Shown here piece after piece: positions 14,901 through 55,500 of a DNA stretch of 64,000 bases. Position numbers and translations under genes: made by a program. Below the pieces are notes generated by a model that was not told the origin of the DNA, ran no database searches, and saw nothing but the letters and a program-made list of their open reading frames with translations. Origin of the DNA: Onthophagus taurus (Eukaryota; Arthropoda; Insecta; Coleoptera; Scarabaeidae); NCBI RefSeq assembly GCF_036711975.1, contig NC_091966.1, forward strand, positions 42,229,501 to 42,293,500. The letters are read 5' to 3'. The first letter of the stretch is position 1. Each line of letters starts with the position of its first letter.

Positions 14901-17900
14901 GTTATTTGGCAAAACGGGTTGGTTCATCGGAAAGAGGACACTTTTATTAACACTTTGGGAAATTTTCATACTGATATTCCAAGAAATGGATTTTATACGA
15001 ATTATTAAAATTTGATCTACGAAAATTGCAAAATTCGAAAAAAATGTTGACCATTTAAAAATTTTTTTCTCAAGAACTAAAAGTGATTTTTCAAATCGGC
15101 TTTTTGCATTAAAAAGAGGATACTTTAATTAATAATTGGTGACATTTTCACAAGGATCCTTCAAGAAATTAATTTTATAGCGAATTTTGAAAATTATCGA
15201 TGAAAATTGCAACATCGGAAATTTAATCATAACTTCAAATATTGTTTTCTGAAAAACTAAAAGTTATTTTTCAAAACGGGTTGGTCCATTGGAAAGAGGA
15301 CACTTTTATTAACACTTTGGTAAATTTTCATACTCATATTCCAAAAACTGGATTTTATACGAATTTTTAAAACTTAATCGGCAAAAATTGCAAAATTCGA
15401 AAAATTATGCTGAATAAACTTTAGATAATCCGTTCAACTGTGGGGAAAACTTGAACATACTTGCACGTCAACATATTTAGATGAAAAAGGATTTAGTTCT
15501 GTTGTCCAGCTCCTCATAAAACAAAGAACTAAGGTGGACATTTGCTTCAAAGGAGACTTGCGCCTGAACTTGACGAACATAAACCAGATTATTAAAATTA
15601 AAATTAGGCATACAATGAAAATGACAAGGAGCGATAGGTGGTAGCCAACTTCCAGAAAGGGGAGATAGGACACAAAAGATTGGGAACCACTGATCTAACG
15701 ACAGAAACTATTTGCTAGCTACTGGCTCATTTGATATATATTTTGAAGATTTTACATTTGCAGGCTGTGATATATTTCAAAGTAATCTATGTCTCCAAGG
15801 GTCCTCATAGTATCCTATGAAAGTTGGACCCCTAGCCTGCAGAAGAAAAATTCTTTCTACTTGTGTGTGTTTGTTGTTTTTAAAATTGTCGTATATTATA
15901 TTTGTAAATGTCGAAACACACATGTAAGAAATAAAATCCACGGGACAGAAACTTTTAATAACAGAGAGCCGAAGAAAGAACAAAGTATCTATACAATACA
16001 ATAAGGATCAGTGGAAACTCTGTAGCTGGAGCACAATATGAACGAAAAGTTCGAACTCCAAAACCCAACTGCCCCAACTTGATGTCAATCAATAATAACA
16101 TTGGTTAAAAATTAATGTCAAAGTGAATCAAAAGGTCAAGTTGTAATTATTTATTGAGTTTAGTACAACTAATTGGTAGTTTTGAATACAAAAATCATTT
16201 GTGTTTTTTTTTTGATAACGTTAAAGAGTTACTAAAAACTCGACAGAGTTATTTACCAAGCATTTTTGCCAAAACTTGTAGTAATTGTCAAAGAACACAG
16301 CAACAATTTCAATGTTTAGTGATTGTAACCAAGAAGCAATTTGTAATCCTTTAGACAGAGTTTAACAAATTTCGAAAATTACAAAAATGTGTAATTAAAA
16401 CTTTTTAAAAATATTTCTGATAATGAGGCAACCCATTATACTAAAATAATATTTGGGTTGCATACATTTAAATTTGTAATTTAATTAAAATTAAAATTTA
16501 TAACTTAAAATATATATAATTGGTGATATATCCACAAGGATCCTTCAAAAAATAAATGTTATAGCGAATTTTGAATGTTATCAATGAAAATTGCACAACA
16601 TCGAAAATTTTATCAAAACTTCAAATATTGTTTTCTCAAAAACTAAAAGTTATTTTTCAAAACGGGTTGGTTCATTAAAAAGAGGATACTTTTATTAACA
16701 TTTTTGGAAATTTTCAAACTCATATTCCAAGAACTGGATTTTATACGAATTTTTAAAACTTAATCGGCGAAAATAGCTAATTCGAAAAAACTGTCAATCA
16801 TTTCAAAAATTGAAAATTATCGATGAAAATTACAACATTGAAAATTTTATCAAAACTTCAAATATTGTTTTCTCAAAAACTAAAAGTTATTTTTAAAAAC
16901 GGGTTAGTTCATTGCAAAGAGGATACTTTAATTAATAATTGGTGGTCTTTCCACAAGGATCCTTCAAGAAATTAATCTTATAGCGAATTTTGAAAATTAT
17001 CGATGAAAATTGCAACATCGAAAATTTTTTCAAAACTTCAATTATTATTTTCTCAAAAACTGAAAGTTATTTTTCAAAACGGGTTGGATTATTGGAAAGA
17101 GGACACTTTTATTAAAATTTTGGAAAATTTTCAAACTCATATTCCAAGAACTGGATTTTATACGAATTTTTAAAATTTAATCGACAAAAATTGCAAATTT
17201 TGAAACATTTTCGATTATTTCAAAAATTTATTTCTCAACAATTAAAAGTGATTTTTCAAAACGGCTTTTTGCATTAAAAACAGGATACTTTAATTAATAA
17301 TTGGAGGTATTTCCACAAGAATCCTTCAAGAAATTAATTTTGTAGCGAATTTTGAAAGTTATCGATGAAAATTGCAACATCGAAAATTTTATCAAAACTT
17401 CAAATATTGTTTTCTCAAAAACTAAAAGTTTTTCTTCAAAACGGGTTGGTTCATTGGAAAGAGAACACTTTTATTATTACTTTGGGAAATTTTCTCATAT
17501 TCCAAGAACTGGATTTATACGAATTTTTAAAATTTAATCGGCGAAAACTGCAAAATTCGAAAAATAATCGATCATTTCAAAAATTTATTTCTCAAGAACA
17601 GAAAAGAGGATACTATAATTAATAATTGGTGATATTTCCAGAAGGATCCTTGAAAAATGTGTAATTTGTAATCATTGATCTGAATTAACTATTAAATAAA
17701 ACATTAAATTAATAACTTTTCAAAAATATTTAGGTTGTTAGGCAACCCATTATGGTATAGTAACATTTGGGTTGCATACATTTAAATTTGTAATTTAATT
17801 AAAATTAAAATTTATAACTTAAAAATTTATTAATTCTTAGATTAAAATTAAAATTGAATTAAAAAAAAATGGATTAATTAATTTATGAACTTACTTGATT

Positions 17901-19309: not shown

Positions 19310-22300
19310 TTAAATTTCAACAAATTTGCAACATCAAAAATTTTATCAAAATTTCAAATATTGCTTTCTCAAAAACTAAAAGTGATTTTTTAAAACGGCT
19401 TGTTGCATTAAAAAGAGGATACTTTAATTAATAATTGGTGATGTTTCCACAAGGATCCTGCAAGAAATTAATTTTATAGCGAATTTTGAAAATTATCGAT
19501 GAAAATTGCAACATTGAAAATTTTATCAAAACTTCAAATATTGTTTTCTCAAAAACTAGAAGTTATTTTTCAAAACGAGTTGGTTCATTGGAAAGAGGAC
19601 ACTTTTATTAACATTTTGGGAAATTTTCAAACTCACATTCTAAGAACTGGATTTTATACGAATTTTTAAAACTTAATCGACGAAAATTGCAAAATTCGAA
19701 AAAATTGTCGATTATTTCAAAAGTTTATTTCTTAAAAACTAAAAGCGATTTTTCAAAACGGCTTTTTGCATTAAAAAGAGGATACTTTAATTAATAATTG
19801 GTGATATTTTCACAAAGATCCTTAAAGAAATTAATTTTATAGCGAATTTTGAAAATTATCGATAAAAATTGCAACAGCGAAAATTTTATCAAAACTTCAA
19901 ATACTGTTTTTTCAAAAACTAAAAGTTATTTTTGAAAACGGGTTGGTTCATTGGAAAGAGGACACTTTTATTAACACTTTGGGAAATTTTCAAACTCATA
20001 TTCCAAGAACTGGATTTTATACGAATTTTTAAAACTTAATCGGCGAAAATTGCAAAATTCGAAAACATTGTCGATTATTTCAAAAATTTATTTCTCAAGA
20101 ACTAAAAGTGATTTTCAAAACGGCTTTTTGTATTAAAAAAAGGATACTTTAATTAACAATTGGTGATATTTCCACAAAGATCCTTCAAGAAATTAATTTT
20201 ATAGCGAATTTTGAAAATTATCGATAAAAAGTGCAACATCAAAAATTGTATCAAAACTTCAAATATTCTTTTCTCAAAAACTAAAAGTTATTTTTCAAAA
20301 TGGGTAGGTTCATTGGAAAGAGGACACTTTTATTAACACTTTGGGAAATTTTCAAACTCATATTCCAAGAAATGGATTTTATACGAATTTTTAAAACTTA
20401 ATCGGTGAAATTTGCAAAATCCGAAAAAATTGTCAATCACTTCAAAAATTTATTTCTCAAGAACTAAAAGTGATTTTTCAAAATGGCTTTTTGCATTAAA
20501 AAGAGGATACTTTAATTAATAATTGGTGATATTTCCACAAAGATCCTTCAAGAAATTAATTTTATAGCGAATTTTGAAAGTTATCGATGAAAATTGCAAC
20601 ATTGAAAATTTTATCAAAACTTCAAATACTGTTTTTTCAAAAACTAAAAGTTATTTTTCAAAACGGGTTGGTTCATTGGAAGAGGACACTCTTATTAACA
20701 CTTTGGGAAAATTTTATACTAATATTCCAAGAAATGGATTTTATACGAATTTTTAAAACTTAATCGACGAAAATTGCAAAATTCGAAAAAATTGTCGATT
20801 ATTTCAAAAATTTTATTTCTCAAGAACTAAAAGTGATTTTTCAAAACGGCTTTTTGCATTAAAAAAAGGATACTTTAATTAACAATTGGTGATATTTCCA
20901 CAAAGATCCTTCAAGAAATTAATTTTATAGCGAATTTTGAAAATTATCGATAAAAAGTGCAACATCAAAAATTTTATCAAAACTTCAAATATTCTTTTCT
21001 CAAAAACTAAAAGTTATTTTTCAAAATGGGTAGGTTCATTGGAAAGAGGACACTTTTATTAACACTTTGGGAAATTTTCAAACTCATATTCCAAGAAATG
21101 GATTTTATACGAATTTTTAAAACTTAATCGGTGAAATTTGCAAAATCCGAAAAAATTGTCAATCACTTCAAAAATTTATTTCTCAAGAACTAAAAGTGAT
21201 TTTTCAAAATGGCTTTTTGCATTAAAAAGAGGATACTTTAATTAATAATTGGTGATATTTCCACAAAGATCCTTCAAGAAATTAATTTTATAGCGAATTT
21301 TGAAAGTTATCGATGAAAATTGCAACATTGAAAATTTTATCAAAACTTCAAATACTGTTTTTTCAAAAACTAAAAGTTATTTTTCAAAACGGGTTAGTTT
21401 ATTGGAAAGAAGACACTTTTATTAACATTTTGGGAAATTTTCATACTAATATTCCAAGAAATGGATTTTATACGAATTTTTAAATCTTAATCGGCGAAAA
21501 TTGCCAAATTCGAAAAAATTGTCGATCATTTCAAAAATTTTATTTCTCAAGAACTAAAAGTGATTTTTCAAAACGGCTTTTTGCATTAAAAAGAGGATAC
21601 TTTAATTAATAATTGGTGATATTTCCACAAGGATCCTTCAAGAAATTAATTTTATAACGAATTTTGAAAATTATCGATGAAAATTGCAACATTGAAAATG
21701 TTATTAAAACTTCAAATATTGTTTTCTCAAAAACTAAAAGTTATTTTTCAAAACGGGTTAGTTTATTGGAAAGAAGACACTTTTATTAACATTTTGGGAA
21801 ATTTTCATACTAATATTCCAAGAAATGGATTTTATACGAATTTTTAAATCTTAATCGGCGAAAATTGCCAAATTCGAAAAAATTGTCGATCATTTCAAAA
21901 ATTTTTTTCTCAAAAACTAAAAGCGATTTGTCAAAACGGCTTTTTGCATTAAAAAGAGGATACTTTAATTAATAATTGATGATATTTCCACAAGGATCCT
22001 TCCAGAAATTAATTTTATAGCGAATTTTGAAAATTATCGATGAAAATTGCAACATCGAAAATTTTATGAAAACTTTAAATATTGTTTTTTCAAAAACTAA
22101 AAGTTATTTTTTAAAACGCGTTATTTCATTGGAAAGAGGACACTTTTATTAACACTTTGGGAAATTTTCATACTTATATTCCAAGAAATGGATTTTATAC
22201 GAATTTTTAAAACTTAACCGGCGAACACTTCAAAATTCGAAAAAATTGTCGATTATTTCAAAAATTTATTTCTCAAGAACTAAAAGTGTTTTTCAAAACG

Positions 22301-23740
22301 GCTTTTTGCATTAAAAAGAGGATACTTTAATTAATAATTGGTTATATTTCCACAAGGATCCTTCAAGAAATTAATTTTATAGCCAATTTTGAATGTTATC
22401 AATAAAAATTGTAACATCGAAAATTTTATCAAAACTTCAAATATTGTTTTCTCAAAAACTAGAAGTTATTTTTCAAAACGGGTTGGTTCATTGGAAAGAA
22501 GACACTTTTATTAACACTTTGAAAAATTTTCATACTCATATTTCAAGAAAACGATTTTATACGAATTTTTAAAACTTAATCGGCTGAAATTGTAAATTTG
22601 AAAAAAATTGTAGATCATTTCAAAAATGTATTTCTTAAGAACTAAAAGTGATTTTTCAAATCGTGTTGGTTCATTGGAAAGCGGACACTCTTATTAACAC
22701 TTTGGGAAATTTTCAAACTTAATATTCCAAGAAATGGATTTTATACGAATTTTTTAAACTTAATCGGCGAAAATTGCAAAATTCGAAATAAATGTCGATC
22801 ATTTCAAAAATTTATTTCTCAAGAACTAAAAGTGATTTTTCAAAACGGCTTTTTGCATTAAAAAGAGGATACTTTAATTAATAATTGGTTATATTTCTAC
22901 AAGTATCCTTCAAGAAATTAATTTTATAGCGAATTTTGAAAATTATCGATGAAAATTGCAACATCGAAAATTTTATCAAAACTTCAAATATTGTTTTCTC
23001 AAAAACTAGAAGTTATTTTTCAAAACGAGTTGGTTCATTGGAAAGAGGACACTTTTATTAACATTTTGGGAAATTTTCAAACTCACATTCTAAGAACTGA
23101 TTTTATACGAATTTTTAAAACTTAATCGGCGAAAATTGCAAAATTCGAAAAAATTGTGGATTATTTCAAAAATTTTATTTCTCAAGAACTAAAAGTGATT
23201 TTTCAAAACGGCTTTTTGCATTAAAAAGAGGATACTTTAATTAATAATTGGTGATATTTCCACAAGGATCCTTCAAGAAATTAATTTTATAGCGAATTTT
23301 GAAAATTATTGATGAAAATTGCAACATTGAAAATGTTATCAAAACTTCAAATATTGTTTTCTCAAAAACTAAAAGTTATTTTTCAAAACGGGTTGGTTCA
23401 TTGGAAAGAGGACACTTTTATTAACACTTTGGGAAATTTTCAAACTCACATTCTAAGAACTGGATTTTATACGAATTTTTAAATCTTAATCGGCGAAAAT
23501 TGCAAAATTCGAAAAAATTTTCGATTATTTCAAAAATTTATTTCTCAAGAACTAAAAGTGATTTTTCAAAGCGGCTTTTTGCATTAAAAAGAGGATACTT
23601 TAATTAATAATTGCTGATATTTACGCAAGGATCCTTCAAGAAATTAATTTTATAGCGAATTTTGAAAATTATCGATAAAAATTGCAACATCGAAAATTTT
23701 ATCAAAACTTCAAATATTGTTCGACACTTTTATTAACACT
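19310..23740. repeat. S2 satellite block, ~12 dimers, between GST B and GST C
   Basis: Continuous S2 dimers in + orientation. Parts are recently duplicated: about 20160-20540 closely matches 20880-21260, including the rare variants AAATGGGTAGGTTCATT and CACAAAGATCC. The last monomer is truncated just after ATATTGTTCGACACTTTT near 23720. Confidence 0.93.
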
Positions 23741-31615: not shown

Positions 31616-34600
31616 ATGGCTCCTATTTTGTATACTGTAGATCCGAGTCCACCGTGTAGGGCTGTTTACATGACCGCGAAAGCAATTGGGATCGAATTAG
31701 AACATAAAATTATCGATATTCTTAAAAACGAACAATTAGATCCATCGTTTATTAAGGTATGTAGGAGAAATTACGATGTTTTATGATTACAAATTTTTTT
31801 TAGATAAATCCAAGGCATACAGTTCCAACTTTAATCGATGATAACTTGGTGTTAACCGATAGTCACGCTATTACAACGTATTTAACGTCGAAATACGCTA
31901 AAGATGATGGGTTATACCCGAAAGATTTGGCTAAAAGGGCTTTGATTGATCAAATGTTGCATTTTGATAGCAGCGTGACTTTTCCAGCTCTATTAAATAT
32001 TGGTGTGAGTAATGAGTTTATTTTCGTTCCTAACCTTGAGTGTTATTTAATGTAGATGTAATCTTGTGGCCTTCAATTTTAAATTATAAACAAAATAAAA
32101 TATATCGAAATAAATTTCTAGAAAAGTTCACTTTTCTATGTTACAAAGAAAATGAAATGATCATCCAAGAAACATCGTGCAAGTAAGCAAAGATGCTACA
32201 AATAGCCTCTTAAAAATAGGTGTTACTAACAACAGGTTAGATATTGCTGGTGGAAAACTAGTTAGTGCTGATGGAAGTCAAAACATAGTAGATTAAATAC
32301 TGCTTCCAAAAATTTAATAGTGCTGGTAGCAGATTGGATACTGCTGGTAAAAAACTAGATACTGCTAATATAAAACTAAGTAGATAGTGAAACAGAAGAC
32401 TATTTAATGCTAGTAGAAGATTATTCAGTACTGGTAGAAATATAGAGATCGCTTGCGAAAGACTACATATTGCTGGTAGAAGACTACTTACTGATTGCTA
32501 AAGTCTACTTGCAAAAGACTATAAGTATACCGTTGGCAGAAAACTAAGTATTGTCAATAGACAGAAGACTACTTAATGCTGGTAGCAGATTACTCAGTGT
32601 TGGCAAAAATCTAGATAACGCCTATAAAAGACTACTTACTGCTTGCTGAAGTCTACTTATTACTTGTAAACAACTATATACTGTTGGTAGAGAACTAGAT
32701 ATTGTTAATTGAAGACTAAACAGTGGAGAAGACTATTTAATGCTAGTAGAAGACTACTCAGTACTGGTAGAAATTTAGAGTAACACTACATACTGGTTGC
32801 TGAAGTCTGCATACTACTTATAGAGGACTATACCTATAGTGTTGGTAAAGAATTAGATATTGCTAATGGGACAGAAGACTACTCAATGCAAAAATCTAGG
32901 TAACTCTTACAAAACACTATATACTGCTGGCAGAAGACGACTTACTGGATGCTGAAGTCTACTTATTACTTGCAAAAGACTATATACTGTTGGCAGATAA
33001 CTAGATATTGTTAATGGAAGACTAGACAGTTGAACAGAAGACTACCTACTACTAACTGATAGAACACTACTCAGTGTCGGCAGAAATCTAGATAATGCTT
33101 GCTGAAGACTACTTATTACTTGCAAAAAACTATACAGGAGGGTGTTTCTGTAAGTCGTGGCATAATTTTAATCACAAATAAGTACTAGAGTCAAATTGAT
33201 GACGATTCGTGTAAAAATTTTTGGTCTAAACCCATAAATGGCTAAGATATAGGCCATCAAGGTTTTTTTTGAAACATTTTCTTAAATGTTTTCAATATGG
33301 TTTGTCTTTGAAAGATAAAATTTGGCAAACAGTGCAATGTCATCATGAGAAATCGTTTAATCACTTTTGAAAATATGCAAATACGGGATTAATGCTATAC
33401 AGGTGTTTCCAGAGGGTATTTCCTTAAAACTTTTTTATTATGTAGTAAACCATTAAATTTTTATTCCTACAAATTTTTGATTAGACACATCGTTTTCGAG
33501 TTATTCACAAAAAGGTTTAGGTTCGTTTAAAAGAATATCTAAAAGATATCTGGATTTTCTTCAGTATAATTATTCTTTAGCATTTCTCAAATTAATGGTT
33601 ATCTACAAAAAGTACTTTTTTACACACAGATAATAACTGGATATGGCAGAAAATTTGATATTGTTAATAGACAGAAGACTACTTAATGCTTGTTGGTAGA
33701 GAACTAGATATTGTTAATGGAAGACTAAACAGTGGAACAGAAGACTATTTAATGCTAGTAGAAGACTGCATACTGTGCTGGCAGAGATCTAGAGATACCT
33801 TGGGTAAGACTGCATACTGGTTGCATACTGGTATAATGTTGGCAGAGAACTAGATATTGCTAATGGGACAGAAGACTACTCGCTGACAAAAATCATATAC
33901 CGCAGAAGACTACTTACCGCTTGCTGAAGTCTACTTATTACTTGCAAAAGACTATACTAGCGAAAGACTGTAATTATTGAAATTTAATCGGCGGAAATTG
34001 CAAAATTCCGAAAAATTTTGAAGAACTCAAGAACCAAAAGCGATTTTTCAAAACGGCTTTCTGCATTAAAAAGAGGATACTTTAATTAATAATTGGTGAT
34101 ATTTCCACAAGGATCCTTCAAGAAATTAATTTTATAGCTAATTTTGAAAATTATCGATGAAAATTGCAACATCGAAAATTTGATCAAAACTTCAAATATT
34201 GTTTTCTCAAAAACGGAAAGTTATTTTTCAAAACGGGTTTGTTCATTGGAAAGAGGACACTTTTATTAACACTTTGGGAAATTTTCATACTCATATTCCA
34301 AGAACTGGATTTTATACGAATTTTTAAAATTTAATCGGCGAAAATTGCAAAATTCTAAAAAATTGTCGATTATTTCAAACATTTATTTCTCAAGAACTAA
34401 AAGTGATTTTTCAAAACAGCTTTTTGCATTAAAAAGAGGATACTTTAATCATTAATTGGTGATATTTCCACAAGGATCCTTCAACAAATTAATTTTATAG
34501 CCAATTTTGAAAATTATTGATGAAAATTGCAACATCGAAAATTTGATCAATACTTCAAATATTGTTTTCTCAAAAACTAAAAGTTATTTTTCAAAACGGG

Positions 34601-37440
34601 TTTTTTCATTGGAAAGAGAGCAGGTTTATTAACACTTTGGGAAATCTTCATACTTATATTCCAAGAAGTGGATTTTATACGAATTTTTAAAACTTAATTG
34701 GCAAAAATTGCAAAATTCGAAAAAATTGTCGATTATTTCAAAAATTTTTTTCTCAAGAATTAAAAATGATTTTTCAAAGCGGCTTTTTGAATTAAAAAGA
34801 GGATACTTTATTTAATAATTGGTGATATTTCCACAAGGGTCCTTCAAAAAATGAATTTTATAGCCAATTTTAAAAATTATCGATGAAAATTGCAACATCA
34901 AAAATTTGACCAATGCTTCAAATATTGTTTTCTCAAAAACTAAAAGTTATTTTTCAAAACGAGTTTGTTCATTGGAAAGAGGACACTTTTATTAACACTT
35001 TGGAAAATTTTCATACTCATATTGCAAGAAATCGATTTTATACGAATTATTAAAACTTAATCGGCGAAAATTGCAAAATTCTAAAAAATGTTCGATTATT
35101 TCAAAAATTTATTTCTCAAGAACTAAAAGTGATTTTTCAAAACGGCTTTCTGCATTAAAAAGAGGATACTTTAATTAATAATTGGTGATATTTCCACAAG
35201 GATCCTTCAAGAAATCAATTTTATAGGAAATTTTGAAAGTTATTGATAAAAATTGCAACATCAAAAATTTTATCAAAAGTTCAAATATTGTTTTCTCAAA
35301 AACTAAAAATTATTTTTCAAAACGCGTTGGTTCATTGGAAAGAGGACACTTTTATTAACATTTTGAGAAATTTTTATACTCATATTCTAAGAGATGGATT
35401 TTATACGAATTTTTAAAACTTAATCGGTGAAAATTGCAAAATTCGAAAAAATTGTAGATTATTTCAAAAATTTATTTCTCAAGGACTAAAAGCGATTTTT
35501 CAAAACGGCTTGTTGCATTAAAAAGAGGATATTATAATTAATAATTGGTGATATTTCCACAAGGATCCTACAAGAAATGAATTTTATAGCGAATTTTGAA
35601 AATTATCGATGAAAATTGCAACATCGAAAATTTTATCAAAACTTCAAATATTGTTTTCTCAAAAACTAAAAGTTATTTTTCAAAACGGGTTGGTTCATTG
35701 GAAAGAGGACACTTTTATTAACACTTTGGGAAATTTTTATACTCATATTCCAAGAGATGAATTTTATACGAATTTTTAAAACTTAATCAGTAAAAATTGC
35801 AAAATTCGATAAAATTGTCGATTATTTCAAAAATTTATTTCTCAAGAACTAAAAGTGATTTTTCAAAATGGCTCATTGCATTAAAAAGAGGATACTTTAA
35901 TTATTAATTGGTGATATTTCCATAAGGATCCTTCAAGAAATTAATTTTATAGCCAATTTTGAAAATTATCGATGAAAATTGCAGCATCGAAAATGTTATC
36001 AAAACTTCAAATATTGTTTTCTCAAAAACTAAAAGTTATTTTTCAAAATGGGTTGGTTCATTGGAAAGAAGACACTCTTATTAACACTTTAGGAAATTTT
36101 CATACTAATCTTCCAAGAAATCGATTTTATACGAATTATGAAAATGCAATCGGCGGAAAATGCAAAATTTCGAAAAATTGTCGATTATTTCAAAAATTTA
36201 TTTCACAAGAACTAAAAGTGATTTTTCAAAACGGCTTTTTGCATTAAAAAGAGGATACTTTATTTAATAATTGGTGATTTTTTCACAAGGATCCTTCAAG
36301 AAATGAATTTTATAGCTAATTTTGAAAATTATCGAGGAAAATTGCAACATCGAAAATTTTATCAAAACTTCAAATATTGTTTTCTCAAAAACTAAAAGTT
36401 ATTTTTCAAAACGGGTTGGTTCATTAAAGAGAGGACACTTTTATTAACACTTTGAGAAATTTTTATACTCATATTCCAAGAGATGGATTTTATACGAATT
36501 TTTAAAACTTAATCGGTAAAAATTGCAAAATTCGAAAAAAGTTTCGATCCTTTCAAAAATTTATTTCTCAAGAACTAAAAGTGATTTTTCAAAACGGCTT
36601 TTTGCATTAAAAAGAGGATACTTTTATTAATAATTGGTGATATCTCCACAAGGATCCTTCAAGAAATTAATTTTATAGCTAATTTTGAAAATTATCGATG
36701 AAAATTGCAACATCGAAAATTTCATCAAAACTTCAAATATTGTTTTTTCAAAAACTAAAAGTTATTTTTCAAAACGGGTTGGTTCATTGGAAAGAGGACA
36801 CTTTTATTAACACTTTGGGAAATGTTCGTACTTATATTCCAAGAAATAGATTTTATACGAATTTTTAAAACTTATCGGCGAAAATTGCAAATTCGAAAAA
36901 ATTGTCGATCATTTCAAAAATTTATTTCTTAAAAACTAAAAGCGATTTTTCAAAACGGCTTGTTGCATTAAAAAGAGTATACTTTAATTAATAATTGGTG
37001 ATATTTCCACAAGGATCCTACAAGAAATGAATTTTATAGCCAATTTTGGAAATTATCGATGAAAATTGCAACATCGAAAATTTTATCAAAACTTCAAATA
37101 TTGTTTTCTGTATTAATTATTTTAATCTCTTTTTTAGATCCCCCTACGTTTAAAATTAACCAACGATATTTCTCAAGATAAAGTAATCAAAGTCCAAGAA
37201 GGATACTCATTTTTAGAGAAATACCTTGAAGGTAAAAAATGGGTTGCTTTGAATTATCCAACATTAGCCGATATCCATTTAATATCAACGATTACAAGTT
37301 GTTCGTTCTTCGTTCCAATCGGTGATCATCCAAACATTTTAGCTTGGATTCAACGGGCTCAAAAAGAAGACTTTTATAGCGAAAACGTTAAAGGATTAAA
37401 AGATTTTAACGATTTATTTCAAGGATTTCTTAACTGTTAA
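31616..37440 (+). CDS. Epsilon-class glutathione S-transferase (GST D), three exons
   Basis: Exons are 31616-31756 (47 codons), 31804-32004 (67) and 37138-37440 (100 plus TAA), giving 214 aa. All junctions are GT-AG and phase 0. The N-terminus reads MAPILYTVDP then SPPCRAV (catalytic serine). Exon 2 starts INPRHTVPTL (cis-proline) and contains TDSHAI, LYP and DQMLHFDS. Exon 3 provides the C-terminal helices with YLEGKKWVA and PTLADIH. The exon pattern is identical to GST E and F, so the three form a recent tandem subfamily. The second intron is 5.1 kb, containing a 21-bp minisatellite, foldback fragments and about 3 kb of S2 satellite. Exon 3 follows immediately after the last satellite monomer. 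Exon 2 alone would look like a truncated ORF, but the frame continues into exon 3. Confidence 0.9.
32160..33965. repeat. Degenerate ~21-bp minisatellite in GST D intron 2
   Basis: Units such as GAAGACTACTTAATGCTGGTA, GAAGACTACTCAGTACTGGTA and AAAAGACTATATACTG alternate in a larger pattern of roughly 200-250 bp. The array is interrupted at about 33130-33640 by foldback-type sequence. No translation in any frame looks constrained. Confidence 0.75.
33130..33640. mobile_element. Single-arm foldback-type fragments
   Basis: It begins TATACAGGAGGGTGTTTCTG and contains a second CTATACAGGTGTTTCCAGAG start near 33400, then TCGTTTTCGAGTTATTCAC, all resembling one arm of TACAGGGTGT-type elements. No mirrored arm is present. 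Confidence 0.45.
33975..37110. repeat. S2 satellite block in GST D intron 2
   Basis: About eight to nine S2 dimers in + orientation, ending within TCAAATATTGTTTTCTG, about 30 bp before the exon 3 acceptor. Confidence 0.93.
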
Positions 37441-37535
37441 AATAGTCAATTAAAACAAGGACACCAATTAAACGATAAAAATATCTTATCAAACTTGTTT
37501 TTATTTTATTAATTAAGATTATTTAAGATCAAAGT

Positions 37536-37543
37536 TTATATAA
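37536..37543 (+). promoter_or_regulatory. Possible TATA box of GST E
   Basis: TATATAAG about 55 bp upstream of the GST E start codon, in the 155-bp gap after the GST D stop. Spacing fits a core promoter with a short 5' UTR. Confidence 0.35.
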
Positions 37544-37595
37544 GACAAAAAATAACTTTTTAAAATCTCATTTTGATTTTGTTGGTCGCCCTAAA

Positions 37596-38338
37596 ATGTC
37601 TCTCGTGCTTTATACTTTAGATGTTAGCCCACCGTGTAGAGCGGTTTATATGGTTGCTAAAGAAATTGGGGTTGATTTAAAACACAAAATTATTAACGTT
37701 GTTAATAAAGAACAATATAATGAGGAATATATTAAGGTAAGAGTAAAAATTAAGTTATAAATGTATCAATTTTGTGATTTTTAGATTAACCCAAAGCATA
37801 CAATCCCAACTTTAATTGATGGGGATTTAATTTTAAACGATAGCCATGCTATTACTTCATATTTAGTAGCTAAATACTCCAAAAACGATTTTCTATACCC
37901 TAAAGATGTTGCTAAAAAAGCTCTAATCGATCAAATGTTACATTTCGATAGCGGTGTTATGTTTGCGGCTTTAGCCCAGATTACAGTAAGATTTTTAAAG
38001 CATCAAAGTTAATTTATTACTTAATATTTTTTTAGAAATCGTTGATTTTTGAGCCTAAGAAAGGAATTTCACCCGAACACATTACTTTCGCTGAAACGGC
38101 TTATGACTTTTTAGAAAAATATTTAGAAGGAAAAGATTGGGTTGCAACAAATCAACATACAATAGCCGATTTACACTTAATCGCCACAGTTATGTCGTTA
38201 AATTTGGTTGTTTCTTATAAAGGACGTGAAAATATTAAGAATTGGGTTGAGAGATGTAAAAATCTTGCTTGTTACAGCGAAAACGTCAAAGGGTATCAAG
38301 ATAATGTCGATTTATTTTCAGCTATTACGAAACAATAA
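37596..38338 (+). CDS. Epsilon-class glutathione S-transferase (GST E), three exons
   Basis: Exons are 37596-37736 (47 codons), 37785-37985 (67) and 38036-38338 (100 plus TAA), giving 214 aa, with two ~50-bp GT-AG introns. The N-terminus reads MSLVLYTLDV then SPPCRAV (catalytic serine). Exon 2 starts INPKHTIPTL (cis-proline) and has NDSHAI and DQMLHFDS. Exon 3 has YLEGKDWVA and HTIADLH. It lies 155 bp downstream of GST D in the same direction and has an identical exon plan, so it is a tandem duplicate. AATAAA follows 12 bases after the stop. The terminal 104 bp of its 3' flank are duplicated beyond the satellite block. Confidence 0.93.
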
Positions 38339-38357
38339 TGTGTTAATTAAATAAATT

Positions 38358-38461
38358 TTTATGATAATCTAAATAAACATTAAAATAAAATTTTATAACA
38401 CTAATTAAAGCAAGAAAATGTTTCCTAATCCACTTTAATTTCGTAATCTTTCGATATCATT
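38358..38461. repeat. Perfect 104-bp direct repeat, left copy
   Basis: Identical to 43255-43358. It lies directly after the GST E polyadenylation signal and borders the S2/retrotransposon block on the left. Confidence 0.92.
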
Positions 38462-38474
38462 CCATTCCATTTCC

Positions 38475-39868
38475 AAACGGCTTTTTGCGTTAAAAAGAGG
38501 ATACTTTAATTAATAATTGGTGATATTTCCACAAGGATCCTTCAAGAAATTAATTTTATAACGAATTTTGAAAGTTATCGATGAAAATTACAACATCGAA
38601 AATTTGATCAAAACTTCAAATATTGTTTTCTCAAAAACTAAAAGTTATTTTTCAAAACGGGTTGGTTCATTGGAAAGAGGACACTTTTATTAACACTTTA
38701 GGAAATTTTCATACTCATATTCCAAGAACTGGATTTTATCCGAATTATTAAAACTTAATCGGCGACAATTGCAAAATTCTAAAAAATTTTCGATTATTTC
38801 AAACATTTATTTCTCAAGAACTAAAAGTGATTTTTCAAAACGGCTTGTTGCATTAAAAAGAGGATACTTTAATCATTAATTGGTGATATTTCCACAAGGA
38901 TCTTTCAACAAATTAATTTTATAGCCAATTTTGAAAATTATTGATGAAAATTGCAACATCGAAAATTTTATCAAAACTCCAAATATTGTTTTCTCAAAAA
39001 CTAAAAATTATTTTTCAAAACAAGTTTGTTCATTGGAAAGAGCACACTTTTATTAACACTTTGGAACATTTTCATACTCATATTCCAAGAAATCGATTTT
39101 ATACGAATTATTAAAACTTAATCGGCGAAAATTGCAAAATTCTAAAAAATTTTCGATTATTTCAGACATTTATTTCTCAAGAACTAAAAGTGATTTTTCA
39201 AAACGGCTTTTTGCATTAAAGAGAGGATACTTTAATTAATAATTGGTGATATTTCCACAAGTATCCTTCAAGAAATCAATTTTATAGCAAATTTTGAAAG
39301 TTATTGATGAAAATTGCAACATCGAAAATTTTATCAAAACTCCAAATATTGTTTTCTCAAAAACTAAAAGTTATTTTTCAAAACAAGTTTGTTCATTGGA
39401 AAGAGGACACTTTTATTAACACTTTGGAACATTTTCATACTCATATTCCAAGAAATCGATTTTATACGAATTATTAAAACTTAATCGGCGAAAATTGCAA
39501 AATTCTAAAAAATTTTCGATTATTTCAAACATTTATTTCTCAAGAACTAAAAGTGATTTTTCAAAACGGCTTTTTGCATTAAAGAGAGGATACTTTATTT
39601 AATAATTGGTGATATTTCCACAAGGATCCTTCAAGAAATTAATTTTATAGCGAATTTTGAAAATTATCGTTGAAAATTGCAAAATCGAAAATTTGATCAT
39701 AACTTCAAATATTGTTTTCTCAAAAACTAAATGTTATTTTTCAAAACGTGTTGGTTTATTGGAAAGAGGACACTTTTATTAACACTTTGGGAAATTTTCA
39801 TACTCATATTGCAAGAACTGTATTTTATACGAATTATTAAAATTTAATCGGCGGAAATTGCAAAATTT
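38475..39868. repeat. S2 satellite block left of the Jockey-like insertion
   Basis: About four S2 dimers in + orientation, interrupted at 39868 by the retrotransposon. A ~300-bp segment containing AAACAAGTTTGTTCATTGG and TTTGGAACATTTTC is repeated near 39000 and 39390. Confidence 0.93.
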
Positions 39869-42521: not shown

Positions 42522-43254
42522 TGCAAAATTTCGAAAAATTATCGATTATTTCAAAAATTTATTTCTCAAGAACTAAAAGTGATTTTTCAAAACGGCTTTT
42601 TGCATTAAAAAGAGGATACTTTATTTAATAATTGGTGATATTTTCACAAGGATCCTTCAAGAAATGAATTTTATAGCTAATTTTGAAAATTATCGACGAA
42701 AATTGCAACATCGAAAATTTTATCAAAACTTCAAATATTATTTTCTCAAAAACTAAAGGTTATTTTTCAAAACGGGTTGGTTCATTGGAAAGAGGACACT
42801 TCTATTGACAGTTTGGGAAATTTTCATACTCATATTCCAAGAAGTTGATTTTATACGAATTTTTGAAACTTAATCGGCGAAAATTACAAAATTCGAAAAA
42901 ATTGTCGATTATTTCAAAAATTTATTTCTCAAGAACTAAAAGCGATTTTTCAAAACGACTTTTTGCATTAAAAAGAGGATACTTTATTTAATAATTGGTG
43001 ATATTTCCACAAGGATCCTTCAAGAAATTAATTTTATAGCGAATTTTGAAAATTATCGTTGAAAATTGCAAAATCGAAAATTTGATCAAAACTTCAAATA
43101 TTGTTTTCTCAAAAACTAAATGTTATTTTTCAAAACGTGTTGGTTTATTGGAAAGAGGACACTTTTATTAACACTTTGGGAAATTTTCATACTCATATTC
43201 CAAGAAATGGATTTTATACGAATTTTTAAAACTTAATCGGCGAAAATTGTAAAA
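42522..43254. repeat. S2 satellite block right of the Jockey-like insertion
   Basis: Continues the interrupted monomer and adds about two dimers, ending at AAAATTGTAAAATT, where the right 104-bp direct repeat begins. Confidence 0.92.
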
Positions 43255-43358
43255 TTTATGATAATCTAAATAAACATTAAAATAAAATTTTATAACACTA
43301 ATTAAAGCAAGAAAATGTTTCCTAATCCACTTTAATTTCGTAATCTTTCGATATCATT
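43255..43358. repeat. Perfect 104-bp direct repeat, right copy
   Basis: Identical to 38358-38461. It lies about 90 bp upstream of the GST F start codon, so the two copies bracket the whole satellite plus retrotransposon block. Confidence 0.92.
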
Positions 43359-44194: not shown

Positions 44195-44281
44195 ATCTTA
44201 AATTTTCTTAATTAAAGAGATTCTCTTAATTAAAAGATTGATTTTTTTTTGGTTATGATCAAAATTTTTAAGCATAAAATA

Positions 44282-46228
44282 AACTTCTTGGAATATGAGT
44301 ATGAAAATTTCCCAAAGTGTTAATAAAAGTGTCCTCTTTCCAATGAACCAACCCGTTTTGAAAAGTAACTTTTAGGTTTTGAGAAAACAATATTTGAAGT
44401 TTTGATAAAATTTTCGATGTTGCAATTTTCAACGACAATTTTCAAAATTCGCTATAAAATTAATTTCTTGAAGGATCCTTGTGGAAATATCACCTTTTAT
44501 TAATTAAAGTGTCCTCTTTTTAATGCAACAAGCCGTTTTGAAAAATCACTTTTAGTTCTTGAGAAATACATTTTTAAAATAATCGACAATTTTTTTGAAT
44601 TTTGCAATTTTCGCCGATTAAGTTTTAAAAATTCGTATAAAATCCACTTCTTGAAATATGAGTATGAAAATTTCCCAAAATGTTAATAAAAGTGTCCTCT
44701 TTCCGATAAACTAACACGTTTTGAAAAATAACTTTTAGTTTTTGAGAAAACAATATATGAAGTTTTGGTAAAATTTTCGATGTTGCAATTTTCATCGATA
44801 ATTTTAAAAATTCGCAATAAAATTTATTTCTTGAAGGATCCTTGTGGAAATATCACCAATTATTAATTAAAGTATCCTCTTTTTAATGCAAAAAGGCGCT
44901 TTGGAAAATCACTTTTAATTCTTGAGAAATACATTTTTGAAATAATCGACAATTTTTTCGAATTTTGCAATTTTCGCCGATTACGTTTTAAAAATTCGTA
45001 TTAAATTCATCTCTTAGAATATGAGTATAAAAATTTCCCAAAGTGTTAATAAAAGTGTCCTCTTTTCAACAAATCAACCCGTTTTGAAAAATAACTTTTA
45101 GTTTTTGAGAAAACAATATTTGAAGTTTTGATCAAATTTTCGATGTTGCATTTTTCATCGATAATTTTCAAAATTCGCTATAAAATTTATTTCTTGAAGG
45201 ATCCTTGTGGAAATATCACCAATCATTAATAAAAGTATCCTCTTTGTAATGCAAAAAGCCGTTTTGAAAAATCACTTTTACTTCTTGAGAAAAAAATTTT
45301 TGAAATAATCGACAATTTTTTCGAAATTGCAATTTTCGCTGATTAAGTTTTGAAAATTCGTATTAAATCCATTTCTTGGAATATGAGTATGAAAATTTCC
45401 CAAAATATTGATAAAAGTGTGCTCTTTCCAATGAACTAACACGTTTTGAAAAATAATTTTTAGTTTTTGAGAAAACAATATTTCAAGTTTTGATAAAATT
45501 TTCAATGTTGCAATTTTCATCGATAATTTTCAAAATTCGCTATAAAATTAATTTCTTGAAGGATCCTTGCGTAAATATCAGCAATTATTAATTAAAGTAT
45601 CCTCTTTTTAATGCAAAAAGCAGCTTTGAAAAATCACTTTTAGTTCTTGAGAAATAAATTTTTGAAAAAATCGGCAATTTTTTCGAATTTTGCAATTTTC
45701 GCCGATTAAGTTTTAAAAATTCGTATAAAATCCATTTCATAGAATATGAGTATGAAAATTTCCCAAACTGTTAATAAAAGTGTCTTCTTTCCAATCCACC
45801 AATCCATTTTGAAAAATAACTTTTAGTTTTTGAGAAAACAATATTTGAAGTATTGATAAAATTTTCGATTTTGCAATTTTCATCGATAATTTTAAAAATT
45901 CGCTATAAAATTAATTTCTTGAAGGATCCTTGTGGAAATATCAGCAATTATTAATTAAAGTATCCTCTTTTTAATGCAAAAAGCCGTTTTAAAAAATCGC
46001 TTTTAGTTCTTGAGAAATAAATTTTTGAAATAATCGAAAATTTGTTCGAATTTTGCAATTTTCGCCGATTAAGTTTTAAAAATTCGTATAAAATCCACTT
46101 CTTGAAATATGAGTATGAAAATTTCCTAAAATGTTAATGAAAGTGTCCTCTTTCCAATGAACCAACCCGTTTTGGAAAATAAGTTTTAGTTTTTGAGAAA
46201 ACAATATATAAAGTTTTGATAAAATTTT
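44282..46228. repeat. S2 satellite block, inverted orientation
   Basis: The same S2 dimer, but reading in reverse complement (AAGTGTCCTCTTTCCAATGA, GAAGGATCCTTGTGGAAATA), about five dimers. Minus-strand short ORFs such as 45278-45520 are the same satellite artefact seen on the plus strand elsewhere. Confidence 0.93.
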
Positions 46229-47642: not shown

Positions 47643-48635
47643 ATGAAAATTTCCCAACGCGTTAATAAAAGTGTCCTCTTTCCAATGAACCAACCCGTTT
47701 TGGAAAATAAGTTTTAGTTTTTGAGAAAACAATATATAAAGTTTTGATAAAATTTTCGATGTTACACTTTTCATCGATAATTTTCAAAATTCGCTATAAA
47801 ATTAATTTCTTGAAGGATCCTTGCGTAAATATCAGCAATTATTAATTAAAGTATCCTCTTTTTAATGCAAAAAGCCGTTTTGAAAAATCACTTTTAGTTC
47901 TTAAGAAATAAATTTTTGAAATAATCGAAAATTTTTTCGAATTTTGCAATTTTCGCCGATTAAGTTTTAAAAATTCGTATAAAATCCACTTCTTGAAATA
48001 TGAGTATGAAAATTTCCTAAAATGTTAATAAAAGTGTCTTCTTTCCAATCCACCAATCCATTTTGAAAAATAACTTTTAGTTTTTGAGAAAACAATATTT
48101 GAAATTTTGATAAAATTTTCGATGCTGCAATTTTCATCGATAACTTTCAAAATTCGCTATAAAATTAATTTCTTGAAGGATCCTTGTGGAAATATCAGCA
48201 ATTATTAATTAAAGTGTCCTCTTTTTAATGCAAAAAGCCGTTTTGAAAAATCACTTTTAGTTCTTGAGAAATAAATTTTTGAAATAATCGACAATTTTTT
48301 TGAATTTTGCAATTTTCGTCGATTAAGTTTTAAAAATTCGTATTAAATCCATTTCTTGGAATATGAGTATGAAAATATCCCAAAGTGTTAATAAGAGTGT
48401 CCTATTTCAAATGAACTAACCCGTTCTGAAAAATAACTTTTAGTTTTTGAGAAAACAATATATAAAGTTTTGATCAAATTTTCGATGTTGCAATTTTCAG
48501 CGACAATTTTCAAAATTCGCTATAAAATTAATTTCTTGAAGCATCCTTGTGGAAATATCACCAGTTATTAATTAAAGTGTCCTCTTTTTAATGCAAAAAG
48601 CTGTTTTGAAAAAACACTTTTAGTTCTTCAGTTCT
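47643..48635. repeat. S2 satellite block, inverted, second part
   Basis: Continues inverted S2 after the family C interruption. Its first ~110 bp repeat the last ~110 bp before the interruption, sharing the rare variants TTTTGGAAAATAAGTTTTAG and ACAATATATAAAGTTTTG. Confidence 0.9.
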
Positions 48636-49592: not shown

Positions 49593-52500
49593 TCACGTAT
49601 TATTTTCTGAGCTTTTTTTATCTAAGTTTTCTTCTGCCGTTAAGGAACATAAATCTCTCTTTCCTGAATTCGTTTTGGTATCTAAATTGTTCGAATTTTG
49701 AGCATTTTCATCTAAAATAATAGGTAATCTATCTCCCCATTTAGTTGATCTTGCACAATGATACATAGTTCTAAAATTTCAACCATTAACATTAAAAACA
49801 ATCTTAATTTTTGTATAACACACTCACTTTCCATGTTTTGATGCTGTAAAAATTACTTCAGATAACTTTCCATCAGCGGTGCAAGTTCTACAAATGCAAT
49901 GTTTGGATCGAACTAAAGTTTCTCGAACAACCCGTGGCCAATTTTGCGTTGAATCCTTATCGACACCTACTCTCAAAAAAAGATTAATATAAAATTAAGT
50001 GTAGAAGAAAAATCTTACTTTTTTTAAAGACTATGTAAGAATATCGTTCTTTTTGCATTTCAAATTTATTCGTTAACGGAATATGGAAGTAATTAATTTC
50101 AAAGTTACAAGGTGTGTTATCATCCGCTAAAAATCTTGGGCACACTAAATCGTGAGGGCACTAAAAATAAGATAATAATTCAAGAATCATCATGTCGCTT
50201 AAAAAACGACCATTTTCTTTTAATCGACGGGAAATTATTCAAGTAAGCCATTACAAATAAAAAAAAAGTTCTGATAAGTGTAAAATTTATCAAAAAAATT
50301 ACTTTAAAGTTTAAGTGACGTCACTTTTTGTCACGTCATCAACCGTGCTAATTTCGGCATATTTTCGGGTAAAATGCGGTTGTTTCTTAGGTTTTGGACT
50401 AAAATGTCATTGTTTACCATTTATAAACTAAACATAATCTAAAATCTATACCTGATGCCCTCCTCTTTAAACGTTACATTCAAATATACGTAATTTACTG
50501 ATTTATTTCAGAATTTTGTGTAGAAATTCTACTTTCAGATAGGTTAATTAATAGAATATAAAAAAAATTACAATATTTGCATAAAACGATGACTAGCACC
50601 GAAATTTCTTTACAATAAATTAGTCATCGTTTTATGCAAATATTGTAATTTTTTTTATATTCTTTTACGAAGAATGATGAACCTGGAGGTAAACATCGCC
50701 AGGTTAATTAATGTTTAAACCAGTGCGAATTTCTCAAATGTTGAATTGGGGATGGAGCAGAGGGTGGGTTGTAAATTCCGGGTTGGGTTATACCGATACT
50801 TTCTACTTCTAGGGTTAATTCTAGTTTTAAATGTATTTAGCGTTAGATTGTGGTGTATTTTTATTGAAAGAAAAGTAGCACTAACACTAGACCTAGAACC
50901 AGAAACATTCGGGTTTAGCCGTGCGTCTCTTAAGTCGGCTAAACCTGAACGTTTCTAGTTCTAGGTCTAATGTTAGTTCTAGTGATAGTGGTACTAGTGG
51001 TTCTAGTTAGCATAAGATATCACTGTGTTGCATATTTTTATTGAATTAAAATTAGAACACTAGACATAGACACTAGAGATTTTGGTGTTTTTTTAAACAG
51101 TTTCTTCGCAAGGCTAAGAAAAAAACTTTAAGGTGTTAATGTCAACTTTAAATTCATTGTTATATTCGTAATCTTTATAAAATAACCTTTAAAATGAGTC
51201 CAAACATGACGCACTTATCTCAAAAAACAAAAAAGTTAGAATAAAAAACATTAAACCCGAAGTTAGCAACAATGAAGATAGCAATTTAAGTTAAATGTTG
51301 ACACCAACCTTAATTTTTGACTTTTTTTATTATATTTTCGTTTTTGTGACATTTTATAAAAATTAAGAATATATCAAAATGACGTTGACATTTCTAACCG
51401 GAAGTTGACCACAACTTCATTAATATTGAAGATAAACATGTCGTCTTTGTATTCATTTTAAAAGATTTTTAATGAAGATTACAAATATGTCAAAATTGAG
51501 GTTGACATTTTAAACCTGAAGTTATTTGTCATATAATAACAAGTATACCACAATTTAACGTTAAACAACAAAACATCAACTTTAATTTTATTATTATATT
51601 CGTAATCTTTATAAAATAACCTTTAAAATGAGTCCAAACATGACGCACTTATTTCAAAAAACAAAAAAGTTAGAATAAAAAACATTAAACCCGAAGTTAG
51701 TAACAATGAAGATAGCAATTTAATTTTTAAATATTAATACCAACCTTAATTATTGATTTTTTTTATTATAAAAGGTTTTTGTGACAAATATTAAGACATT
51801 TTATAAAAAATTAAGAATATGTCAAAATGACATTGACATTTCAAATCGGAAGTTGCTTATATCTCGAGTAATATTGGAATTAAACGTATCATGTTTGGAC
51901 TCATTTTAAAGGATTTTTCACGACGATTACAAATATGTCAAAATTGACGTTGACATTCTTAACCGGAAGTTGACCATAACTTCATTAATATTGAAGATAA
52001 ATATGTCGTGTTTGTACTCATTTTAAAGGATTTTTAATGAAGATTCCAAATACGTCAAAGTTGAGGTTGACATTTTAAACCTGAAGTTAGTTGTCATATA
52101 ATAAAAAAATGAACAACTTCATGGTGTTATTTCATGATGTATTCTTTATTAAAAAACACGGATTATTGTGACTGTGTATTTTTTTTATGTATATGTTACG
52201 TGCAATATTTTATATATTATATTTTATTATATTTTTCGACTTGCTTGTAAATTTTATACTGACGAATGTATGCCTTCGGGTTATTAGCATAATAAAGCTT
52301 ATTATTATTATTTAAAATGAGTGCAAACATGAAACATTTCTTTCAAAAAGTAAAAAAGAGAATAAAAAACCTTAAACCCGAAGTTAGCAACAATGAAGAT
52401 AGCAATTTAACTTTTTAAATATTAATACCAACCTTAATTTTTGATTTTTTTTTTATTATATTTTTGTTTTTGTGACAAATATTAAGACATTTTATAAAAA

Positions 52501-55500
52501 ATTAAGAATATGTCAAAATGACATTGACATTTCAAACCGAAAGTTGCTTATATCTCGAGTAATATTGGAATTAAACGTATCATGTTTGGGCTGATTTTAA
52601 AGGATTGTTCACGACGATTACAAATATGTCAAAATTGACGTTGACATTTCTAACCGGAAGTTGACCATAACTTCATTAATATTGAAGATAAATACGTCGT
52701 GTTTGTATTCATTTTAAAGGTTTTTTAATGAAAATTACAAATATGTCAAAATTGAGGTTGACATTTTAAACCTGAAGTTAGTTGTCATATAATAGACAAA
52801 CAGACAACTTCATGGTGTTATTTCATGATGTATTCTTTATTAAAAAACCTTTAAAATGAGTCCAAACATGATACATTTCTTTCACAAAACAAAAGAGAGA
52901 ATAAAAAATATTAAATCCGAAGTTAGCAACAATGAAGATAGCAATTTAACTTTTTAAATATTAATACCAACCTTAATTTTTGACTTTTTTTTATTATATT
53001 TTCGTTTTTGTGACAAATTTTAAAACATTTTATAAAAATTAAGAATATGTCAAAATAACGTTGACATTTCAAACCGGAAGTTGCTTATATCTCGAGTAAT
53101 ATTGGAATTAAACGTATCATGTTTGGGCTGATTTTTTTACGACGATTACAAATATGTCAAAATTGACGTTGACATTTCTAATCGGAAGTAACAATTTACC
53201 TACAAATTGTTTATTTTATAGCCATGTACAAAATCAATTTGATAAACTTACAAGTAATGTTATTTTTTTACTTTAAAATGAATACAAACACGACATCTTC
53301 AATATTAATGAAGTTATAGTCAACTTCCGGTTAGAAATGTCAACGTCAATTTTGACATAAGTTTATTATTCCAAGTTGTATATTTGAAAGAAGACTTGAA
53401 CGACATATCAAGTGTGCTATATTTTTGGAAAGGAAATTTTATGGTCTCGTCGAATTTGCAAAAATATATAGGTGTTTAATTTAAAAAAATCAATTTTATG
53501 TCAATAACCACTAAAATATTGTTTTGGGGAAAAGCTAACTTATTCCATCGAATTCTACATAAAAAGTTGCTATGGAAATGTTTTCACAGAAAGGAAGATT
53601 TATCAATAAGAAAAAATTTAGGACGATTTTTCGAAAATGTACTTTTTTGAAAAACACTCTGTATCTCTAAAACCGTAAGAGATATCGATATGCGGTTTTG
53701 GCCATTAAATTTCTTATAAAAATCGAGCCTCACACACTGACATTATTTTTATTCTATCTCTTAAAAAGAGTAGTTTCCCTTTAAAAGTGTCCAATTTGGC
53801 CCACCTCTACAGGTGGTTCAAATTCGATGTCCAAATAGGCTATCTCGGAAACTATAAGAGTTAGAAAAAAAGTAGCTTACATGTCATGATCTCGTTTTTC
53901 GAGTAACTGCTAATGCCAAAAACATCAAAGCGCTATCGTCTTTTGTTTGTCCCCTAGAAGTCAAAATTGAAAATATCGTAAAACCAGCAAGTGCAATTAT
54001 CTTGGTTATTATTATAGGTGGAGTATTATAACTAAGACATTATATGGACACTTTTTTACAGAGAATTTGAGGACGTAGTCAAAAAAAATTTCGGTTTTAG
54101 ATTTTAAGATATTATGACAATTTTCGTTTTTTTTAAGTGGAAACAACCACTGATTATTCGTTAATTAAATTCGTTATTTTTTCTGATTATAAAAATATAA
54201 TAATTTCTTATTGTTTTAGAATAAAGCTAAAAATAAACTTTTTTTAGTGTCCTCAAAGAAATTAAATTTACAGTTTCCTGTAAATTACGGTACTATAACT
54301 AAAAATTATTCTACTAAAAATTTATATAAAATTTACTTTATTTTCTAATATATAATATTCTAACATGTTAAACTTTTCGTAATTCATTTTAAAAAACAGG
54401 ATTTTTGACACTTCAGAAAATTTTTGAATACAAACAAATGTTGCTATGTTTATTTTAATTAAAAAAATATATATGAGCGCCACCTATCAATAATTTATTA
54501 GGTCAATTAATAATAATATTAAATATTAATAAAAAATGTGAAATAATGCAATCTATTCCAACTTTTGTTTAAAACAAATATAAATTAAATAGTTCAACTG
54601 TATTTGTTTCAAATATCAGAAATATGCTTTTTAATTTTTAGTTATAATTTACAGGAAACTGTAAATTTAATTCTTTGATGACACTAAAAAGTTTATTTTT
54701 AGCTTTATTCTAAAATAATATGAAATAGACATGTCAAACCCTATATTTTTGTAATCAGAAAAAAATAACGATTTTAATAAGCGAATAATCAGTGATTCTT
54801 TCCATTTAAAAAAACAAAAATTGTCCTGGTATCTCAAAATCTAAAACCGAAAATTTTTTTTTGACTACGTCATGAAATTCTCTGTAAAGAAGTGTCCATA
54901 TAATGTCGTAGTTATAATATTCCACCTATAATAATAACCAAGATAATTGTACTTGTTGGTTTTACGATATTTTCAATTTTGGCCTCTAGGGGAAAAACCA
55001 AACACGATAGCGCTTTGAGATTTTTGGTATTAGTAGTTTCTCGAAAAACGAGATCATGACATGTAAGCTACTTTTTTTCTAACTCTTATCGTTTCCGGAC
55101 ATCGAATTTGAACCATCCTGTACATGGTGAACATCGCTTGTGACGTCACATCGAAACTTTAATGTGATTTTTAGGTATGTTCTACACTTTTCCGCATTTC
55201 CTTTTAATTTTTAACGTCATTTCACATTGATTTAAAAAAAATCGTCGATTTTTAAGCCACAATATGTTTGATATTAAAATCAAATTAATCATACAGGTGA
55301 AAAAATGTGGCCTTGATTAGATTGATTCATTTTCAATATGAAATCTCTCGCTTCATTAATAACCTAAAATTCGATTCTTATTTAAATTATTAATTTTATA
55401 ATAACTAAAAAGCAATACTTTAAATCCTGCGTTAGATCCATTCTCCACAATTATTAAATATTTATTTGTTTTGTTCCATAATCTTAAAATTGTATCCATT

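Follow-up and report, generated by a model that had tools for sequence, protein, structure and literature searches.

A transposon family with long, unequal terminal inverted repeats in intron 5 of METTL17 of Onthophagus taurus and in introns of other genes

We analysed a 64,000-nucleotide (nt) stretch of the beetle Onthophagus taurus (RefSeq assembly GCF_036711975.1, contig NC_091966.1, positions 42,229,501 to 42,293,500; hereafter the window), in which the long intron 5 of METTL17 is bordered by inverted repeats. Both belong to a single DNA-transposon family, of which they form the left and right terminal repeats. Very probably, a short METTL17 intron that already existed received a non-autonomous cut-and-paste transposon, whose terminal inverted repeats (TIRs) are long and unequal and whose target-site duplication measures 8 bp; other repeats and a foldback element then enlarged the copy, and its right tip eroded. 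A first-pass annotation of the window had read the intron as introner-like, an introner being an intron made by the transposon itself.

Intron 5 occupies positions 50161..55294 of the window on the minus strand (5134 bp), with the donor GTATGATT at 55294 and the acceptor ..TTTTTAG, that is TTATTTTTAG, at 50161. Splicing at these sites would join the exons in an open frame in phase 0 (...VINEARDFILKMNQSNQGHIFSP|CPHDLVCPRFLADD...). The Pfam family Rsm22 spans the junction in the joined exons (E = 1.3e-10), which also match human METTL17 (structure chain 8csp_7, E = 3.9e-6), and this evidence supports the intron as first annotated. The five other METTL17 introns that were located are short, again as claimed (about 49–55 nt; 51, 55, about 53, 50–52, and 49 nt, of which the values of about 53 and 50–52 were offset-corrected by one base and 49 was counted by eye).

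The reported closeness of the inverted repeats to both splice sites was borne out. The left TIR (L-TIR; 50172..50324, plus strand, 153 bp, inner end GTGACGTCAC) turns its outer tip to the acceptor, from which it is separated by 11 nt of putative host intron (50161..50171, minus strand, CTTATTTTTAG), and is 88.8% identical to the L-TIR consensus, which was built from the 39 loci described below and the METTL17 copy. The right TIR (R-TIR; 55140..55282, minus strand) is clearly homologous at 55140–55269; its outermost ~13 bp are unrecognisable, with 8 of 19 tip bases matching in a hand alignment, and its end is expected near 55282. The putative remnant of host intron on the donor side (55283..55294, minus strand) thus measures 12 nt from the extrapolated tip, or 25 nt from the last recognisable base at 55269; both remnants were delimited by the sequence and the TIR boundaries. 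The description of the arms as two copies of one module was right insofar as they are the TIRs of one transposon, but they are not identical: they share 69.7% identity over 142 columns (E = 2–3e-12, within the window), and the right arm is 85.6% identical to the R-TIR consensus versus 78% to the L-TIR consensus. An identity of only 70% would suit two independent insertions of a short repeat that came to lie in opposite orientation at the intron ends by chance. The modules are, however, one of L type and one of R type with their tips pointing outward, as in the other two-ended elements, and we regard such a coincidence as extremely unlikely.

Family members were abundant in the genome. A 31-base tip piece had 433 matching places with at most three mismatches (left and right ends mixed) and a 45-base right-end pattern had 309 at the same tolerance, with none for the reversed-pattern control of the former and none for the control of the latter. 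The 170-bp left module had at least 43 matches including its own place, with 40 of 673 candidates scored. We studied 39 loci with the best-scoring module matches, among them a second copy in the window itself (L010). Their L-TIRs had a median identity to the consensus of 93.8% (87.2–97.6%). A family copy carries an L-TIR (GGTATAATTC...) at one end and an R-TIR (GGAAAAATTC...) at the other; both types are present in METTL17. A paired, inverted, and distinct second arm was present in 14 of the 39 loci, and three more were recognised with the right-end consensus: L023, whose tip is truncated, and L027 and L039, in which 24 and 20 bases match. This gives 17 two-ended loci; L012, whose element runs off the end of the locus, was left out of this count. 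The two-ended elements measure 779–3054 bp, compared with 5.1 kb in METTL17, and elements of the family would reach up to ~6 kb if the listed L and R places are paired.

A target-site duplication of 8 bp was perfect (8/8) in L047 and L039, and matched at 7 of 8 positions in L017 and L042, at 7 of 8 with a one-base shift in L038, and at 6 of 8 without a shift in L024. A scan of duplication lengths over 14 elements had its optimum at n = 8 (matched fraction 0.46 versus 0.34 expected). The element in L027 is flanked on both sides by a run of GCTTTTTT, but out of register.

The surroundings of the other copies suggest what happened in METTL17. Reading of the flanks by eye placed 11 of the 17 other two-ended elements between two exons with an open joined frame, surrounded by a host intron of 40–129 nt that carries both splice sites (picked by eye). 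The length of the empty intron was taken as the donor plus acceptor remnants minus 8, i.e. with the element and one copy of the 8-bp duplication removed, and ranged from 32 to 121 nt (median 58 nt) across the 11 introns. Host genes were named by Pfam where it gave a name and otherwise by our own recognition. With donor/acceptor remnants and empty length in nt, these are an IF-2B/EIF2B4-like gene (L017; 30/36, 58), a lipoyl-domain protein (L023; 109/20, 121), an exo_endo_phos/PDE12-like gene below the Pfam cut-off (L024; 35/28, 55), a BTB-zinc finger (L027; 15/56, 63), a zf-AD protein (L028; 81/32, 105), a BRCT/TopBP1-like gene (L029; 27/53, 72), a PEX13-like gene (L035; 48/7, 47), an armadillo gene (L038; 7/33, 32), a PINK1-like gene (L039; 25/45, 62), a SPATA2/PUB gene (L041; 31/23, 46), and a DDX23-like gene (L047; 48/14, 54); the METTL17 values are 12–25/11 and 15–28. 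A Pfam match crosses the junction in six of the 12 joins (L017, L023, L028, L029, L041, and METTL17), and the joins of L024, L027, L035, L038, L039, and L047 rest on the open frame and splice signals. Gene and element run in the same direction in six of the 12 introns and in opposite directions in the other six. In L047 and L039 the perfect duplication falls within the intron, so that the empty site would be a complete intron of 54 or 62 nt. A paralogue comparison for the armadillo gene returned one locus only in the genome. The zf-AD gene of L028 suits an insect host.

Several observations weigh against an insertion into an existing intron or blur the family picture behind it. The METTL17 remnants, with a total of 23–36 nt, are shorter than the other introns of the gene and the smallest of the set, and no target duplication was seen beside the METTL17 element. 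Ten of the 14 scanned elements match the duplication at 6 of 8 positions or fewer even with shifts, the truncated right tip of L023 is without a duplication, and the right ends of L027 and L039 are those identified from 24 and 20 bases. The empty intron of L038 is very short, and six of the 17 two-ended elements were not shown to lie between two exons (by eye, L018, L020, L034, and L042 have an apparent exon on one side only, and L022 and L037 have none). Finally, the splice sites were chosen by eye so as to give open frames. An automatic two-sided splice scan agreed with the pair chosen by eye in 5 of the 9 introns covered by both; the METTL17 and L035 pairs fell outside the limits of the scan. 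Scores of at least 6 were obtained for 7 of 13 elements (L022, with a short flank, omitted) versus none of 820 random points, and also at 8.4% of 1147 points within the same loci. For METTL17, whose remnants are below the 35-nt floor of the scan, the score was 2.7 and came from a different pair, and L017 scored −0.7 with the pair chosen by eye; other pairs were favoured in L024, L035, and L047, and the score of 8.0 in L018 came from a doubtful pair. An earlier detector, which looked for a 90-bp exon with a GT or AG, was too weak and was dropped: a score of 6 was reached at 7 of the 39 and 1 of the 20 left ends versus 0.4% of 800 random points. A deletion of the METTL17 right tip that also removed some of the host intron would fit the short remnants.

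The proposal that the transposon entered a METTL17 exon and itself created intron 5 can be judged against known introners. These share DNA-transposon features and gene enrichment with the present family, but they create introns and show similarity near both splice sites, whereas copies of this family lie deeper within introns that own their splice sites (comparison with the excerpted text of Gozashti et al., PMC9860276). In that text, similarity has to start at most 5 exonic or 10 intronic bases from both splice sites, a rule meant to exclude secondary insertions; it is applied there to intron pairs and here to tip positions. Similarity began within these limits in 0 of the 12 introns: with its right tip extrapolated, METTL17 falls one or two bases short of the 10-base limit, and the 11 other copies lie within introns with their own splice sites. 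By eye, all 24 splice sites of the 12 introns are outside the element in intron-like sequence, although the donor of L038 may fall in the target duplication. The near miss of METTL17, with the shortest remnants of the 12, speaks for an introner, as does a copy beside a Raptor-like exon (L057, left flank, C5:5052320-5053020), where the open frame runs into the tip and the tip motif GGTATAA is a candidate element-supplied donor; L065 may resemble it. Among structures, the L057 exon matches the WD40 protein PkwA best (E = 2.9e-5); KOG1 and several Raptor chains come next (5.5e-5 to 9.5e-5). Conversely, by our reading no splice site lies within the METTL17 element, no exon-derived target duplication was seen beside it, and the empty introns of the other 11 copies are mostly of ordinary length. 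We therefore consider creation of intron 5 by the transposon very unlikely. Insertion into an existing intron would place the tips near the splice sites simply because the host introns were short, and overall the evidence speaks more for the lengthening of existing introns than for the creation of new ones.

Compared with random points, copies of the family adjoin coding sequence much more frequently, and a random placement relative to splice sites, which would have spoken against the first-pass annotation, did not occur. With a codon model trained on 26 long open reading frames (ORFs), a coding-like window (120 bp, at most 90 bp from the left end, threshold 4) was present at 24 of 59 left ends (18 of the 39 loci and 6 of 20 pattern-picked copies) versus 17 of 560 random points (28 points on each of 20 random 1-kb stretches). 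The corresponding counts were 29/59 versus 31/560 at threshold 3 and 21/59 versus 13/560 at threshold 5. Windows 90–160 bp from the tip scored at least 4 in 26–35% of cases; the share was 0.5% among 440 random windows and 12.8% among 1326 windows 600–3000 bp away in the 39 loci. At distance 0 from the tip there was no coding excess, as expected if an intron lies there. The conclusion relies on these point rates and not on a stretch-level Fisher test, which was not significant (24 of 59 ends versus 6 of 20 random stretches, p = 0.44); the random coding hits cluster in six of the 20 stretches. The codon model somewhat favours the loci, since its training ORFs came from these loci and from the window, including the PRMT5 exon beside L010, and its background was drawn from the random stretches. 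By eye, a convincing exon lies beside the tip in 10 of the 20 pattern-picked copies; among five of these ten searched with Pfam, only the CTP synthase of L063 (5e-24) passes the cut-off, the DDB1-like L061 is just under it (7e-6), and L054, L057, and L064 are weak. The distribution over contigs agrees with this bias. Contig C8 holds none of 65 exact tip matches (31 of the tip piece and 34 of the right-end pattern) versus 10 of 38 IS1595-type transposase hits (Fisher p = 2e-5), in sets that are not fully independent (four tandem tips on C16, equal-scoring pairs on C8), and has one tip match with a single mismatch. At a guess, C8 could be a sex chromosome or have a different chromatin state.

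The genic bias most likely reflects integration into accessible, AT-rich DNA of active genes together with the removal of exon insertions by selection. A stronger version, compatible with the insertion reading, holds that integration seeks introns or splice-adjacent DNA beyond open genic chromatin; the 11 of 17 two-ended copies between two exons and the excess of coding-like windows at left ends agree with it. An open-chromatin preference with selective loss of exon insertions would, however, give the same picture, and silkworm miniature inverted-repeat transposable elements (MITEs) likewise favour genes and introns (PMC2997013, excerpted text), so that true targeting appears rather unlikely. 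Still more doubtful is that the family prefers short introns of active genes as integration sites, from which its copies are spliced out, and that a tip occasionally supplies a donor, as perhaps in L057, as a step towards an introner in an insect.

Searches for MULE (Mutator-like element), IS1595-type, and hAT-like transposases tied none to the family: neither the 16 MULE nor the 38 IS1595-type hits fell within a family copy, as judged by eye against the tips among the matches listed. A transposase would probably be supplied in trans by an autonomous relative. In L015, a fragment situated about 1.1 kb inward from the left tip looks like part of a hAT transposase, with one near relative (82%), 31 others at 35–51%, and no Pfam match. 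Some interior ORFs resemble retroelement or Tc1 pieces by eye (the domain scan covered the ORFs of L015). Galileo and other foldback-type elements likewise have long TIRs with a variable interior; their duplication length and tips probably differ from those found here.

Word searches, which cannot find a family by sequence, matched ours to no literature report. By description, not TIR sequence, it resembles silkworm MITEs in its TIRs, 8-bp duplication, and preference for genes and introns: four silkworm families have unspecific 8-bp duplications and are apparently Pegasus-like, and 3794 of 5785 elements lie in gene regions, including 1427 within introns. Silkworm MITEs differ in having TIRs of 8–59 bp and lengths of 210–567 bp, compared with TIRs of ~150 bp and elements of 779 bp to several kb here (PMC2997013, excerpted text). 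TCAST transposon-like elements of Tribolium, compared by description and not by sequence, are also non-autonomous with long TIRs (~269 bp), and 29 of 68 lie in introns, but their duplication is ACT (3 bp) instead of 8 bp (PMC3411249, excerpted text).

Between its TIRs, the METTL17 element contains a left subterminal part (50372..50571, plus strand) common to 10–19 of the 39 loci and a CTAGTTCTAGGTCTAG-type inverted repeat region (50772..51071) common to 23–30 of them (BLAST coverage in 100-bp bins). Direct repeat families in tandem rows, partly with ~117-bp units (51142..53189), are probably secondary, and a palindromic foldback repeat (53808..55122) is probably nested; its arms at 53846–54091 and 54852–55097 are 92% complementary, with an outer match of 53808–53832 to 55097–55122. 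The suggestion that foldback and ~117-bp repeat ("family C") insertions swelled the intron is thus upheld as probable, in that this copy seems to have grown by the addition of other repeats.

The second copy in the window (L010; 2060..2220, minus strand) is an L-TIR with 95% identity to the consensus, 35 nt from the acceptor of an exon that matches Pfam PRMT5 (E = 8e-16); the right end of the element was not found in this locus. Elsewhere in the genome, family tips repeat at a regular spacing of about 237 nt four times on contig C16 (C16:2300065-2300804, partly in L046) and of about 777 nt three times on contig C5 (C5:8200479-8202078), as if transposon parts became small tandem arrays. Other repeats in the window are a 363-bp tandem repeat with a ~180-bp half period in several arrays, apparently in both orientations (12523–15404, 19351–23607, 34026–39867, 42524–43256, 44274–46228, and 47643–48628), and a tandem array with a period of about 181 bp and 152- and 161-bp variants (3644–10396).

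In the sequence of events that we propose, the transposon would have entered an existing METTL17 intron of ~50 nt, other repeats and a foldback element would then have enlarged the copy while its right tip eroded, and the whole insertion would be spliced out by the original splice sites, leaving the protein unchanged. Most likely neither the transposon nor the intron is of an unusual kind, but the genic bias of the family is notable. A short intron that houses a transposon is easily mistaken for an introner: with introns of ~50 nt, an insertion anywhere in an intron ends up only tens of bases from either splice site, and the intron length left after removal of the element and its duplication helps to separate the two. 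If the intron bias should reflect true targeting and not selection, the family would be a model of selfish DNA that finds harmless sites within genes.

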